NCBI GenBank assembly: GCA_016871755.1 | Contig: VHCJ01000001.1 | Coordinates: 186,001-250,000 of the forward strand | Reading direction: 5' to 3' | Length of the DNA stretch: 64,000 nucleotides | Origin: Verrucomicrobiota bacterium | GTDB lineage: Bacteria; Verrucomicrobiota; Verrucomicrobiia; Opitutales; Opitutaceae | Part shown: positions 44,953-60,425 of the stretch, piece by piece | Position numbering within the stretch: the first letter of the stretch is position 1 | Layout of the letters: each line of letters opens with the position of its first letter | Program-made: the position numbers and the translations under genes | Notes under the pieces: model-generated | Told to the model about the DNA's origin: nothing | Seen by the model: only the letters and a program-made list of their open reading frames with translations | The model's database searches: none

Positions 44953-45483
44953 CTACGGTTCGCCGTCGAAGGAGGAGGCCGACCCGGAAGCAGGCGCCTT
45001 GACGAGGCCGGACTTTCCAGTGCCCGCCCTCGCGCCATCGGCCTTCGCCATGCCCGCCTGTGCCGGATCGGAGCGGCCACCCCCCGTCTTCGCGGTGTCC
45101 GCCTTGTCCATGCCGGTCTTGGCGGAGTCGGACTTATCACTCGCGCCCTTCGCGCCGTCCGACTTCCCGTTGCCGGCCTTGGCCGCCTCGGCCTTCTCGG
45201 CCTTGTCCAGCTTGCCATCGTGGTTCGCATCGAAGCGTTCCAGCCGCCTGGCCTGCGCCTCGGCGCGCCCGCGCTGCACGTCCTCCTTCCACGCGGCGCG
45301 CTCCGACTCGCTCAGGCGCCCATCGCGGTCGGCGTCGTACTTGCGCAAAATGGGCGCCGGCAGGGTCTTCGTCTTCTCCGGCGTCGCCTCCTCGGCGGCG
45401 ACGACGGCAACGGTCAGGAGGGGGAAAGCCAGCAGAGCCCGTCTGCCGCGAGTAATGATCCGATTGCAGAATAATGTGTTCAT
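44953..45483 (-). CDS. Secreted EF-hand calcium-binding protein
   Basis: 176 residues from ATG 45483. A signal peptide (ends about VVAAE) is followed by two EF-hand loops, DADRDGRLSESE and DANHDGKLDKAE. The C-terminal ~80 residues are a degenerate repeat of a K-(S/A)-D-(S/T/G)-A-K-x-G type unit rich in Ala, Lys, Gly and Asp. It probably binds calcium outside the cytoplasm. It has its own promoter-like hexamers at 45510-45538. Confidence 0.85.
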   Translation of the reverse strand: MNTLFCNRIITRGRRALLAFPLLTVAVVAAEEATPEKTKTLPAPILRKYDADRDGRLSESERAAWKEDVQRGRAEAQARRLERFDANHDGKLDKAEKAEAAKAGNGKSDGAKGASDKSDSAKTGMDKADTAKTGGGRSDPAQAGMAKADGARAGTGKSGLVKAPASGSASSFDGEP

Positions 45484-45509
45484 GCGCCGAGGAGGAAGCG
45501 CCGCTAAGC

Positions 45510-45538
45510 GCATTAGAGCAAATAGATTGCTTACGCAA
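45510..45538 (-). promoter_or_regulatory. Putative sigma-70 promoter for the EF-hand gene
   Basis: On the minus strand TTGCGT, 17 bases, TAATGC, ending 27 bases before the start codon. The area is AT-rich against GC-rich flanks. Weak match but good spacing. Confidence 0.35.
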
Positions 45539-45640
45539 ACACGACCGAAATAGGGCCATCCTTGGCCATGGGAGGACCGCCGGAAGGAAACAGGGGGAAC
45601 TCGGCCAGGTCCCTCCCGCGTGCCAGTGCGGCCGAGTCGC

Positions 45641-48289: not shown

Positions 48290-48730
48290 TCAGGGCGCCT
48301 CCGTCAAGACCGCCTTGGGCCAGTGCTTTGGCCGCGGCCCCTTCGGCAGGAACGGTTTCACGAAGGCATCCTCGAACGAAAACACCTCCGAAAAGTCCTC
48401 GCGACGATCGCTCTCGGTCTTGGAGAAGATGTTGTAATCGATCAGGCTGAACACGATGTCGCCGAAGTCGGCGCAGCGCCGAATTCCCCAGCCATGGAGC
48501 ACCGTGATCGCCAGCGGACCAAACTGATCAAGTGCATACTCCCGAATGCCTTGCAACAGTTCAGGTCCACTCACGTGGATGGAGCGCTGCGCCCGGCCAG
48601 AGTCGCGCTTCCGCAGTTCCTTGACGGCATGGTCGAGGCCTTGGCGGGTGAACGCGTAGGCCCGCCGGTCGAACCGCGGGTCTTCCTTGCAAATCAGCTC
48701 GACGATCGCGTCGAAATCGAGGTCCTGCAT
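48290..48730 (-). CDS. Minf_1886-family conserved protein
   Basis: 146 residues. AYAFTRQGLDHAVKELRKR, HVSGPELLQGIREYALDQFG and DFGDIVFSLIDYNIFSKTESD match the small conserved protein known as Minf_1886, found mainly in Verrucomicrobiota and Planctomycetota. Function unknown. It lies 69 bases upstream of the M16 gene on the same strand, so the two may be co-transcribed. Confidence 0.85.
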   Translation of the reverse strand: MQDLDFDAIVELICKEDPRFDRRAYAFTRQGLDHAVKELRKRDSGRAQRSIHVSGPELLQGIREYALDQFGPLAITVLHGWGIRRCADFGDIVFSLIDYNIFSKTESDRREDFSEVFSFEDAFVKPFLPKGPRPKHWPKAVLTEAP

Positions 48731-48978
48731 GCGAAAACGCCTCGAGCCTGCACACGCCTAGGCGTTCTGCAATCTCAAGGTTGAGGAGACGAGGCCCAGT
48801 CACCGGCCGCGGGAGTCGCGGAATGCGCCCTTGCTCGCCCAGCGCCGCCGCGATCGCCGGATTCGCCCCGGTGGTGGCCCCGGGAGGTGAGAAACGCAGT
48901 CCGGGGCGTCCTCGAGCATCGTGCAATCTCAGGCTTGAATCAGGTGCAATTTGGCATTTACTTAGCAACGGTTGCATC

Positions 48979-48992
48979 TTTGCTATCGCAAA
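48979..48992. promoter_or_regulatory. Palindrome TTTGC-TATC-GCAAA, candidate Fur-family operator
   Basis: It has perfect 5-bp arms and sits 79 bases upstream of the Fur-like gene. The related TTGCATCTTTGC also occurs at about 48972 and TCGCATCTTTGC at about 49015. The surrounding 48735-49070 gap (336 bases) has no gene and is AT-rich at 48920-49060. Confidence 0.45.
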
Positions 48993-49070
48993 CTGACTCT
49001 TCTCTTCCCCGACGTCGCATCTTTGCATTTGCCTCGCAGTTCTTCAATCCATTGACTCCCAGAATTCACC

Positions 49071-49577
49071 ATGACTGATTCCGCCGAAACCCATCCTGGA
49101 ACCGCCACCGGTGCCGAGCCGGCCAATGCTCCCATTGAAGTCGCCGTGAAGCGGCTCCGCCAAGCCGGGCTCCGCATCACTCAGCCGCGCATTGCGATCC
49201 TCAATGCCCTGATCCGCCGGGATCGGCCGGCGAGCATCGAGCAGATTCACAATGATCTGAAGGGAAACACATTTTGCGATCTGGTGACGGTCTATCGCTG
49301 CCTCGCCGCCTTCGAAAATCTCGGGCTGGTCCGCCGCTGCTTCTTCCACAACGGCACCAGCCTGTGGCAAATCAACCTCGCCGGGGAAACGTCCTACCAC
49401 ATCGTTGGCAAGGCCTCCAATACGATGGAGCAGCTTGATCCGCAGACCTCGGCCGAGTTGGCCGCGGCGATCAAGCGGGTCGAGGACGTGCTTAAGTCGC
49501 GGGGTTACAAGGACCTCTCGCACATGGTGGAGTTCTTCGGCGTCAGCCCAGGCGCCGGGGCAGCCCCGTCGATCTAG
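49071..49577 (+). CDS. Fur-family transcriptional regulator lacking the zinc ligands
   Basis: 168 residues from ATG 49071. The winged HTH is typical: LRQAGLRITQPRIAILNAL, then DLVTVYRCLAAFENLGLVRR. The dimer domain is not: where Fur proteins have a His cluster and C-x-x-C (HHHLxCxxC), this one reads GETSYHIVGKASNTMEQL, without Cys and with a single His. The second C-x-x-C is also missing. It may sense something other than Fe/Zn or use other ligands. Repeated TTTGC sites upstream suggest autoregulation. It is convergent with the exported superoxide dismutase gene. Confidence 0.85.
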   Translation: MTDSAETHPGTATGAEPANAPIEVAVKRLRQAGLRITQPRIAILNALIRRDRPASIEQIHNDLKGNTFCDLVTVYRCLAAFENLGLVRRCFFHNGTSLWQINLAGETSYHIVGKASNTMEQLDPQTSAELAAAIKRVEDVLKSRGYKDLSHMVEFFGVSPGAGAAPSI

Positions 49578-49617: not shown

Positions 49618-50403
49618 TCAACCGCGGGCGGCCTGCCACTCGGCAGCCGCCACGTCCCAGTTGAGCACGCTCCAGAACGTCTTCGCGTAGTCCGCGCGCC
49701 GGTTCTGGAACTTCAGGTAGTACGCGTGCTCCCAGACATCCAGCCCGATGATGGACACGTAGCCGTCCATGCCGGGCGTATCTTGGTTGGGGGTGGACAT
49801 CACCGAAAGCTTGCCGTGCTTGAGCGCCAGCCAGGCCCAACCGCTCCCGAAGCGACCCATCGCCGCCTCGGTAAAGCGCGCCTTGAATGCGTCGATCGAG
49901 CCGAATGCGTCCGTCAGCGCCGCCGCGAACGCACCTGACGGCGCCGACGCGCCGCTCGGGGTCATCAGGCGCCAGAAAAGGGCGTGGTTGAGGTGGCCGC
50001 CGACGTTGTTGCGAACAGCGTTGCGGATGGACTCCGGGACGGCGGAGAGGTTCGCCATCAGGGCCTCAGCACTCAGGGCTTGGAGTTCCGGATGGGCCTG
50101 CAGCGCGCGGTTGGCGTTGTCCACATAGGCACGGTGATGCCGCCCATGGTGGATTTCCATGGTGAGACGATCGAAATGGGGCTCCAGCGCGTCCACCGCG
50201 TACCCCAGCGGGGCCAGCGTGAACGGCTGCATCGTGCCGGAGGTGCTGCCGGACGCCGCCTTCGCCCCTGCGGGCGCTGCGAGCAACGGCGCAGATGCCG
50301 TGGCAGCAACCGCCGCAGCGGCTCCCCAGCCTCCAAGCAGGCGAAGGGCGTCGCGGCGGGAAATGGCGGAGGGAGACGAGGGGGTCGGGGGAACGTGTGC
50401 CAT
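49618..50403 (-). CDS. sodA: Tat-exported Fe/Mn superoxide dismutase
   Basis: 261 residues. It starts with a twin-arginine signal ([11 protein letters not shown] and a hydrophobic Ala-rich stretch), then the [37 protein letters not shown] and [19 protein letters not shown] provide the three His and one Asp metal ligands. It converts superoxide to peroxide and oxygen. Tat export implies it leaves the cytoplasm folded with its metal. Fe versus Mn cannot be decided by eye. Confidence 0.93.
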
Positions 50404-58637: not shown

Positions 58638-59024
58638 TCAGGCCTTCGCCTTGGCGGCGGTGGCCTTGGCCTTCAACGCGTCCTGCGCCTGCTTGACCAA
58701 GGCGTTGAACGCGGCCTCGTCGCGGATGGCGATGTCGGACAGGACCTTGCGGTCGAGTTCGATGTTCGCGGCCTTGAGGCCCTCGACGAAGCGGCTGTAG
58801 GTGATGCCGGCGTTGCGGCAGGCCGCGTTGAGGCGGACGATCCAGAGGCCGCGGAATTCGGCCTTCTTCTTGCGGCGGTCGCGGTAAGCGTACTGCCAGG
58901 CGTGCTGGACCGCTTCCTTAGCGTAGCGGAACAGCTTCGATTTGCTGCTGTAGTAGCCCTTGGCGTACTTCAGCACTTTCTTGCGGCGGCGGCGCGAGGC
59001 CGGGGCGTTCGTTGCACGAGCCAT
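58638..59024 (-). CDS. rplT: 50S ribosomal protein L20
   Basis: 128 residues, slightly longer than usual owing to an Ala/Lys tail. ASRRRRKKVLKYAKGYYSSK, RDRRKKKAEFRGLWIVRLNA and AGITYSRFVEGLKAANIELDRKVLSDIA are L20 hallmarks. It binds 23S rRNA early in assembly and often represses its own operon by an mRNA pseudoknot. Confidence 0.97.
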   Translation of the reverse strand: MARATNAPASRRRRKKVLKYAKGYYSSKSKLFRYAKEAVQHAWQYAYRDRRKKKAEFRGLWIVRLNAACRNAGITYSRFVEGLKAANIELDRKVLSDIAIRDEAAFNALVKQAQDALKAKATAAKAKA

Positions 59025-59118
59025 GTTGGTTTTCCTTTATTTTATGTGGCCGGCGGGTCGGCTTGAATGATTCACCCGCCTGGCGCGGTGGGAGGTTGTC
59101 GGCTGGGAGCGGTGAGGC

Positions 59119-59313
59119 TTACAGACCGAACGGGAGGCAGCGCTTCAGAGGAGCGGCATGCCCCTCGGCGACGAGCTTGTCCTTCGTAGCACGACGCTTT
59201 GACTTCGTGCTCTTGGAGGCCAGGAGGTGCCGAAAGCCAGGGGTGCGCCGGATGAGCTTGCCCCGGGCGCTCAGCTTGAAGCGCTTGGCGACGGACTTTT
59301 TGGTCTTTTGCAT
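59119..59313 (-). CDS. rpmI: 50S ribosomal protein L35
   Basis: 64 residues from ATG 59313: QKTKKSVAKRFKLSARGKL, RRTPGFRHLLASKSTKSKRR. It is first gene of rpmI-rplT. The usual infC is absent upstream; instead a threonine dehydratase gene ends about 140 bases away. The leader has a small hairpin (CCCTTGGCAAGGG, 59344-59356). Confidence 0.96.
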   Translation of the reverse strand: MQKTKKSVAKRFKLSARGKLIRRTPGFRHLLASKSTKSKRRATKDKLVAEGHAAPLKRCLPFGL

Positions 59314-59456
59314 GGAGAACGGCAGAAAACAGAGGCCCCGGATTCCCTTGGCAAGGGCAAAATCCACTCCCGGCCACGCGACGCGCGGGGGAGGACGGCC
59401 TGTCGCGGGTCGTAAATCGCGTGCGCCAGCCCCTCATTTGCGCACCGGCCGCGGAC

Positions 59457-60425
59457 TCAGCCCGCCGGCAGCCACGACAGGCGGTCCAGATCCACATTCC
59501 CGCCTGAAATGATGATCCCGACCCGCCGACCCTGCAGCCGCGGTTCCCGCCCGGAGAGCAGGACGGCGAGCGGAACGGCGCAGGAAGGCTCGATGACCAG
59601 CTTGAGGACGTCCCAGGCGAGACGCATCGCGGAGACGATCTCCGCCTCCGACACCGTGGCGATCCCGGTGACGTGGCGCTGGATCAAGGCGAAGGTTCGC
59701 TCCGAAAGCGTCGCCCGGAGCCCGTCGGCGATCGTGAAGCCGTTCCCCTGATCGATGAGATGGCCGGCGCGGAAGGAACGAGCCGCATCGTCGGCGGCAG
59801 CCGGCTCGGCCCCGAAGACCGCGATGCCGGTGCCCATCCCGGCGGCGGCCAGCGCGGTCCCGGAAAGCAAGCCCCCGCCGCTGACGGGAGCCAGGACAGC
59901 GTCGAGCCGACCGACCTCCTCCATCAATTCCAGCGCGGCCGTGCCCTGACCGGCGATCACCCGGACGTCGTCGAAGGGGTGCACCAGCGTACCGCCCCGC
60001 TCCTGCAGGAGCGCCGACGCCCGCGCCTCCCGCGCGGCGAGGGTGGGCTCGCAGACATGAATCGTGGCCCCGTAGCGCTCGATCGCCGCACGCTTGATCG
60101 CCACGGTGCCCTCGGGGATGACGATGTCGGCGCGCACTCCCCGCTCGCGGGCGGCAAGGGCGACGGCGGCACCATGATTGCCGGAGGAGTGGGTAACGAT
60201 CCCGGCCCGGGCGGCTTCATCGGGCAGCGAGAACACGGCGTTGAAAGCGCCGCGAGCCTTGAAAGCACCTGCCCGCTGAAAGTTCTCGCACTTGAACCAG
60301 AACTCACCCCCGCAAAGGCGGTCGAACGTCGACGAACGCAGCACCGGGGTGCGGTGCACCCTCCCGCGCAACCGCGCGGCGGCCTCCTGCACATCGGCAA
60401 ACGTGGGAGAGGACGGAAGGGACAT
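59457..60425 (-). CDS. Threonine/serine dehydratase-like PLP enzyme
   Basis: 322 residues from ATG 60425. PLP-binding Lys in ENFQRAGAFKARGAFNAV, SSGNHGAAVALAARERG, the phosphate loop PVSGGGLLSGTALAA and a C-terminal SGGNVDLDRL. This is the catabolic threonine dehydratase/serine racemase type, without the ACT regulatory domain of biosynthetic IlvA. It makes 2-oxobutyrate or pyruvate plus ammonia, or racemises serine. Confidence 0.9.
   Translation of the reverse strand: MSLPSSPTFADVQEAAARLRGRVHRTPVLRSSTFDRLCGGEFWFKCENFQRAGAFKARGAFNAVFSLPDEAARAGIVTHSSGNHGAAVALAARERGVRADIVIPEGTVAIKRAAIERYGATIHVCEPTLAAREARASALLQERGGTLVHPFDDVRVIAGQGTAALELMEEVGRLDAVLAPVSGGGLLSGTALAAAGMGTGIAVFGAEPAAADDAARSFRAGHLIDQGNGFTIADGLRATLSERTFALIQRHVTGIATVSEAEIVSAMRLAWDVLKLVIEPSCAVPLAVLLSGREPRLQGRRVGIIISGGNVDLDRLSWLPAG

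Follow-up and report, generated by a model that had tools for sequence, protein, structure and literature searches.

Fur-family proteins are textbook metal sensors, and members without the Cys4 structural zinc site are already known. PaFur, MgFur and Mur lack this site and have complete regulatory sites, compared with the one clear ligand left in each regulatory site of the protein described here; the structures of PaFur (1mzb, 6h1c), MgFur (4rb1) and Mur (5fd6) are among the best whole-chain matches of its model.

PgFur of Porphyromonas gingivalis has, according to the passages of its description used here, no His-rich regulatory motif, and its authors assume that the apo form may work (PMC6613475). 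By the same passages both CxxC pairs are retained in the protein, each monomer has one zinc, and substituting Cys destabilised it. CjFur, according to the abstract of another report, regulates genes both with and without regulatory metal (PMC5940780). As far as those passages describe PgFur, the family studied here resembles it in the absence of the regulatory His motif, whereas both CxxC pairs are present only in PgFur; unlike PgFur, the present family carries a seven-residue insert, and in some related genomes its chromosomal place is occupied by canonical orthologs. Chlamydial CT296/DcrA was considered as a further comparison and dropped, its structure being said, in excerpts of PMC5599777, not to be Fur-like. 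Proteins that lost a single kind of site are known already (PgFur; Fur without CxxC). Loss of both, while canonical orthologs still occupy that place in relatives, appears to be new within the literature searched; that search, mostly outside subscription journals, found no paper on this Opitutaceae regulator family, and PADLOC gave no match.

Fold and former metal sites of the regulator

The regulator gene lies at positions 49071–49577 (+ strand) of the window, by which we mean the whole 64,000-nucleotide stretch analysed, and encodes 168 amino acids from an ATG start. The protein has the profile match, the winged helix and the dimerisation fold of the Fur superfamily: it scores 45.8 bits against Pfam FUR (PF01475; cut-off 23.1). 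Five NCBIfam models also match, every one of them far under its cut-off (37.6 against 150 for IrrA, 37.5 against 146 for Fur and 31.4 against 180 for PerR, for example). Such genes should not be named ‘Fur’ or ‘Zur’ by profile alone. The earlier note described a Fur-family regulator with a canonical DNA-binding part, and this description holds: the winged-helix domain (residues ~22–100, positions 49134–49370, + strand) has invariant R35, T37, R40, T73, Y75 and R76 in an 80-sequence alignment. The AF2 model of the protein (80 sequences; L008, L011, L112 and L121 were left out of the 84-row set) has a mean pLDDT of 83.4 and a normal Fur fold. It matches 1mzb by Foldseek (E 2.8e-10; VIA Z 14.4, rmsd 2.9 over 132 residues), and the comparison with Fur, Zur, PerR and Mur structures that had been proposed as a check places PaFur, HpFur, Mur, MgFur, ScZur and PerR among the best solved matches.

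For the column counts, proteins were grouped by the presence of the CxxC pairs into 83 degenerate proteins (80 orthologs, including that of the window, and three second copies), six canonical proteins at the same place (syntenic canonical) and 13 distant canonical proteins. Identical proteins were merged, and L001, L104 (38% identity, canonical) and L112 (27% identity) were left out. Three genomes, G009, G014 and G012, have a diverged second copy of this regulator at another place (L119, L120 and L121, respectively).

All four structural cysteines (columns 113, 116, 159 and 162) are present in 13/13 distant and 6/6 syntenic canonical proteins, and the six still have three regulatory residues as well. 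The degenerate proteins have at most one of the four cysteines of a Zur's Cys4 structural zinc site: Cys113 is kept in 45 of the 83, and the remaining 38, including the window protein with Gly113, have none. Column 113 is varied among them (C, S, D, T, N, G or F). The stretch SYHIVGKASN (residues 108–117, positions 49392–49421, + strand) stands where the His cluster and the first CxxC would be, and the Cys/His inventory of the whole protein is H8, H60, C69, C77, C90, H93, H110 and H151. Column 100 is Glu in 23/83 degenerate proteins and column 108 is His in 3/83, while His is found in 81/83 at column 110 and in 80/83 at column 151.

In a MAFFT alignment with E. coli Fur, whose ligands we take to be the residues named, H33, E81, H90 and E101 correspond to P53, Q100, H110 and Q121 of the window protein, and H87, D89 and H125 to T107, Y109 and H151; E108, the fourth position of the latter site, is placed within the gapped helix, at A128. 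Since Pro also occupies the P53 column in canonical relatives (6/6 syntenic and 12/13 distant) and Arg and Lys are the commonest residues at column 121 in them, the ancestral form of the first-named site, site 2, was already unlike its counterpart in E. coli Fur. An ungapped phmmer alignment to PaFur puts the His cluster one residue out of register; the family alignment was preferred because the canonical intermediates support it. The claim that the Cys/His ligands are missing is borne out for the SYHIVGKASN stretch and for both CxxC pairs, and it is slightly too strong because two His remain, one from each site: H110 aligns with H90 of E. coli Fur and H151 with H125.

Synechococcus Zur (SynZur) has, in the part of PMC9337993 drawn on here, a single sensory site, which lies in the dimer domain. 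The place of its sensory Cys was matched to column 125, as it is 12 residues away from the first structural Cys. This column is Cys in 11/13 distant canonical proteins, in 0/6 syntenic canonical proteins and in 0/83 degenerate proteins. The window protein lacks a complete set of sensory zinc ligands of either the interdomain or the SynZur type, one clear ligand being left per site. In the family alignment the degenerate clade has gained no conserved Cys or His of its own, and the plain reading is therefore that metal binding was lost rather than relocated. The loss extends to 83 of the 89 family proteins compared, that of the window included. Together with the purifying selection described below, these sequence comparisons favour the suggestion that the protein may not be a metal sensor; the companion suggestion, that it may bind metal differently, is left some room by the near-invariance of H110 and H151 but gained no positive support.

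Distribution, helix insert and ancestry

A Fur-family match was found in 51 of 57 genomes, in which orthologs and canonical counterparts were told apart by identity and sequence. The 37 genomes of the family comprise 27 with a degenerate gene, three with a syntenic canonical gene (G017, G024, G035), three with a distant canonical gene (G016, G020, G027) and four with neither. Scanning one genome for each species yielded 71 loci, 70 of them at 47–90% identity and one a canonical protein at 38%. The place is marked by a divergent gene of the Minf_1886 family (TIGR04138; 158.1 bits, cut-off 60), which in the window lies at 48290–48730 (− strand). Where there is enough sequence, this partner is found within 500 bp of 73/77 degenerate and 6/6 canonical loci, and an M16 peptidase gene stands behind it at most loci; tblastn did not reveal Minf_1886 at the distant canonical genes scanned.

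The insert of seven residues is present in 83/83 degenerate and 0/19 canonical proteins, which argues for a single origin. It lies in a predicted helix of 20 residues (124–143, positions 49440–49499, + strand), a block with a pLDDT of 90–95 in the model of the window protein. The model of the canonical L088 (19 sequences, pLDDT 79.8) has a nine-residue helix at 129–137, where the pLDDT is 76–87; it also has a C-terminal helix past the last CxxC, which the model of the window protein lacks. The interval from column 123 to 144 is 22 residues long in 83/83 degenerate proteins, 15 in 6/6 syntenic and 11/13 distant canonical proteins, and 17 in the other two. In the degenerate clade hydrophobic residues predominate at helix positions 130, 134, 137 and 141, a 4-3-4 spacing, and L141 is found in 83/83. 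The longer helix probably gives the dimer the stability once provided by the structural zinc; the models are of monomers, so the role in the dimer is one that we infer. At the other end of the protein, a low-confidence tail of the orthologs has the N-terminal consensus MIASTQTNHPL (e.g. L042:5001–5033), which is seen in degenerate and partly in syntenic canonical proteins and is absent from nine members of the window's genus.

A full tree, with the trait columns included, separates canonical from degenerate proteins with support of 100/99. In a tree built without the ligand and insert columns (7 of 102 rows, long-branch or second-copy, were dropped) the degenerate group is not one clade and needs three changes, although a single origin is compatible with this tree too. 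The six relatives that have all four cysteines at the same place make the loss in place visible. Because the sensory Cys is found in 11/13, 0/6 and 0/83 of the distant canonical, syntenic canonical and degenerate proteins, the loss was probably stepwise, beginning with the SynZur-type site, continuing with the structural zinc and H108 and ending, in the window species, with Cys113. A canonical Zur-like query at E 1e-8 has the window gene as its sole match in the host genome; across 24 family genomes, the matches in 17/17 of those with a degenerate gene are that gene or its second copy.

The ancestor of the degenerate clade was, with fair probability, a Zur. A canonical profile finds M. tuberculosis FurB first (103.4 bits), followed by Campylobacter Fur (101.3) and PerR (100.5), a lead of 2–3 bits. 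Among the distant canonical genes, L114 adjoins a gene whose product scores 566.6 bits as a ZigA-like GTPase (cut-off 600), L116 is one gene away from a similar, unscored ZigA-like gene and L106 adjoins MerC; at the others, mostly read by eye, no zinc-related neighbour was recognised. For L088, L105 and L106 the NCBIfam Fur or PerR models outscore Zur, none of them over its cut-off. Compared with Zur (M. tuberculosis FurB, 2o03; SynZur, 7ne9), the probable ancestral type, the window regulator has neither the structural zinc ligands nor a complete sensory site. The host genome has two ZnuA-type genes, and a near-palindrome at C12:61877, in a 926-aa open frame, lies ~2.7 kb before one of them (within C12:60500–68500), with none within C5:11500–19500. 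Nothing resembling a shared palindrome was found before the C12 znuA gene.

Promoter element and neighbouring genes

The region 48920–49070 has 47% G+C, compared with 68% for the window. It contains four TTTGC/GCAAA words, where dinucleotide shuffles give a mean of 0.98 and 15 of 2000 reach four, so that the repeated TTTGC-type sites noted earlier upstream of the gene are real. Two of these words form the palindrome TTTGCTATCGCAAA (TTTGC-N4-GCAAA, 48979–48992), a candidate operator between the Minf_1886 and fur genes that is identical in the promoters of the two closest relatives. The longest invariant runs in an alignment of three species are TTTGCATTTGCCTCGCA (17 nt, 49022–49038), a second candidate element, and TTTGCTATCGCAAA (14 nt); in column permutations a run of 14 was reached in 208 of 5000 and one of 17 in 37 of 5000, so these runs are support and not proof. 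The perfect palindrome has 2, 1 and 2 sites in G000 (the host), G003 and G005 (control 0, 0 and 2), and the fur promoter is the only site common to the three genomes. The intergenic region before the gene (entry 48731–48919) exceeds that of the two closest relatives by ~155 bp and contains a near-repeat, CTGCAATCTCAAGGTTGAG / GTGCAATCTCAGGCTTGAATC.

A second candidate target, at 44953–45513 (− strand), encodes an EF-hand protein whose N-terminus has a hydrophobic stretch. The one-mismatch site ATTGCTTACGCAAA (45526–45539) lies 12 nt before its listed start and 42 nt before a second in-frame ATG, which is seemingly conserved in G005; in that genome the arms of the site are kept and the spacer is changed (ATTGC-TTAC-GCAAA and ATTGC-CTCT-GCAAA). 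The EF-hand gene was found in six other congeners, five with the TTTGC half alone and one, L185, with none.

Across the host genome there is no excess of TTTGC-N4-GCAAA with up to one mismatch (32 sites, compared with 37 for a reversed-pattern control), and near-palindromes are not enriched in the relatives either (29 against 46 and 33 against 46 in the control); a large regulon defined by the pattern was therefore rejected. Five of the 32 host sites align with the 33 of G005, namely those in the fur and EF-hand promoters and three others. One of the three is in what we take to be a seryl-tRNA-synthetase-like frame. The site at 59348–59361 of the window lies in a 95%-identical stretch, and L136 has one spacer base different. 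Around window position 59348 (L125) the match to G005 extends over 432 bp at 95% identity, compared with 78–83% in other aligned stretches; no convincing gene was seen there, and 58800–59900 gave no Rfam match at gathering scores. At this G+C every site is in some open frame, and open frames alone thus cannot separate coding from promoter sites.

The half-site ATTTGCGWTA has 11 matches in three congeners, against 8 in the control: three in fur promoters, one in an EF-hand promoter (G006), three at one conserved site inside an open frame and four scattered. The third place common to the congeners was dropped as a regulon member. A family-wide EM motif search gave scores that beat two shuffled sets at each setting; no family operator is claimed from it, as the best sites are heterogeneous, their distances differ and the sequences share descent. 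The idea of a testable operator consequently stands at the level of the genus, where the palindrome is conserved in the closest relatives, and falls short beyond it, with no single operator found in common across the family and no genome-wide excess.

The gene at 49618–50403 (− strand) encodes an Fe/Mn superoxide dismutase (SOD), as had been noted; that it is exported is suggested by a twin-arginine-like motif, SRRDALRLL, read by eye at the N-terminus. It is a convergent neighbour rather than a demonstrated target. A convergent SOD gene within 400 bp is found at 47/76 degenerate and 0/6 canonical loci, inside a larger conserved gene block, and no near-palindrome was found before the gene between 50404 and 50664. 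The SOD gene was therefore rejected as a target, its adjacency being explained by the synteny of the block. The link to the regulator is weak, since the gene is absent beside 29/76 degenerate and 6/6 canonical loci and has no operator, and adjacency is not good evidence of a role in oxidative stress.

A proposed metal-independent regulator and its alternatives

On balance, we favour the reading that the window protein is a metal-independent, autoregulating winged-helix regulator that descended in place from a Zur-like, zinc-binding sensor. On this view evolution kept the DNA-binding domain, took apart the Cys4 structural zinc site and both regulatory sites, and lengthened the helix of the dimer domain through the insert, which probably came to provide the stability that the structural zinc had given. 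The regulator most likely binds TTTGC-N4-GCAAA in its own promoter, which it shares with the divergent Minf_1886 gene, and the similar site before the nearby EF-hand gene too. It would then be a small local repressor whose output is set by the amount of protein and not by metal or another ligand. Against metal independence stand H110 (81/83) and H151 (80/83), both former ligands and nearly invariant.

A broader proposal, which we put forward tentatively, as possible rather than probable, is that the Opitutaceae mostly turned their only Zur-like sensor, in place, into a metal-free regulator, with a helix extension replacing the zinc and the zinc regulon dropped for a small local one. If this is true, the canonical cousins at the same place form a natural before-and-after series. 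With both kinds of site lost and canonical orthologs at the same place, the transition from metal-gated to metal-free regulation is directly testable, as is what replaces a structural zinc; the family also bears on how zinc is sensed in these bacteria.

The alternative that survives best, although we consider it unlikely, is that metal or haem is still sensed through an unconventional site made of retained His (H110, H151, perhaps H93 or H60) and carboxylates or cysteines. The conservation of the two former ligands is accompanied by that of H93 (74/83), E138 (77/83) and E154 (75/83), and SynZur, in the passages mentioned, offers a precedent with its sole sensory site in the dimer domain (PMC9337993). 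However, H110 and H151 come from different sites, and H60, C69, C77, H93, H110, E138, H151 and E154 are all already present in 6/6 syntenic canonical proteins; there is no gain of Cys or His, none of the 83 has Cys at column 125, and position 113 varies widely.

A thiol redox regulator using C69 and C77 of the DNA-binding domain is a good deal less probable. These cysteines are found in 83/83 and 78/83 degenerate proteins, and an SOD gene lies next door at 47/76 loci, but both are already present in 6/6 syntenic canonical relatives and are thus older than the loss of the metal sites. Their positions are within or beside a predicted helix (71–84), about two turns apart, a placement that would make an intramolecular disulfide awkward, and the SOD gene has no near-palindrome before it. 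We give an equally small chance to the binding of an organic ligand or a partner protein, instead of metal, through the conserved YH and the surface of the helix: Y109-H110 and H151 are near-invariant without metal partners and the family alignment has the N-terminal consensus given above, yet this peptide is missing from nine members of the genus and has low pLDDT.

By NG86, dN/dS is 0.030/0.401 (~0.075) between the window gene and L005 and 0.050/0.543 (~0.093) between it and L006; for the dimer domain the values are 0.025/0.686 (0.04) and 0.064/0.941 (0.07), respectively. No internal stop was seen in the 30 listed orthologs of at least 44% identity, and one is present in a second copy in G014. 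Decay of the gene to a non-functional state, which might be suggested by the loss of all metal sites and by Gly in place of the last structural Cys in the window species, is very improbable and was rejected, since a dN/dS of about 0.08–0.09 shows that the gene is not broken, those orthologs have no stop, and the place and the promoter element are kept.

The host genome (3.67 Mb in 144 contigs, 97.4% complete) has three Fur-family genes: the window gene, L001 and L002. The check for other, canonical Fur genes thus had a divided outcome, L001 having kept the His cluster and L002 having lost it. L001 (G000:C1:517–942) has an HAHFHD cluster and no CxxC, and it lies directly before what are presumably sufC- and sufB-like genes; it is a PerR/Irr-like candidate for the control of Fe-S assembly. 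L002/L137 (G000:C4:31339–31830, − strand), divergent to a gene that we take to be PriA-like, represents a second Fur-family lineage. Across the order, the HxHxxC cluster is absent in 29/29 readable orthologs, a few of which have a single His, and CxxC is kept in 27/29; L157, an off-frame fragment only, is outside the readable set. With CxxC kept and the regulatory His cluster gone, this lineage is PgFur-like and perhaps metal-blind as well. It shares the absence of the regulatory His cluster with the window gene and differs from it in keeping CxxC and in its chromosomal place.
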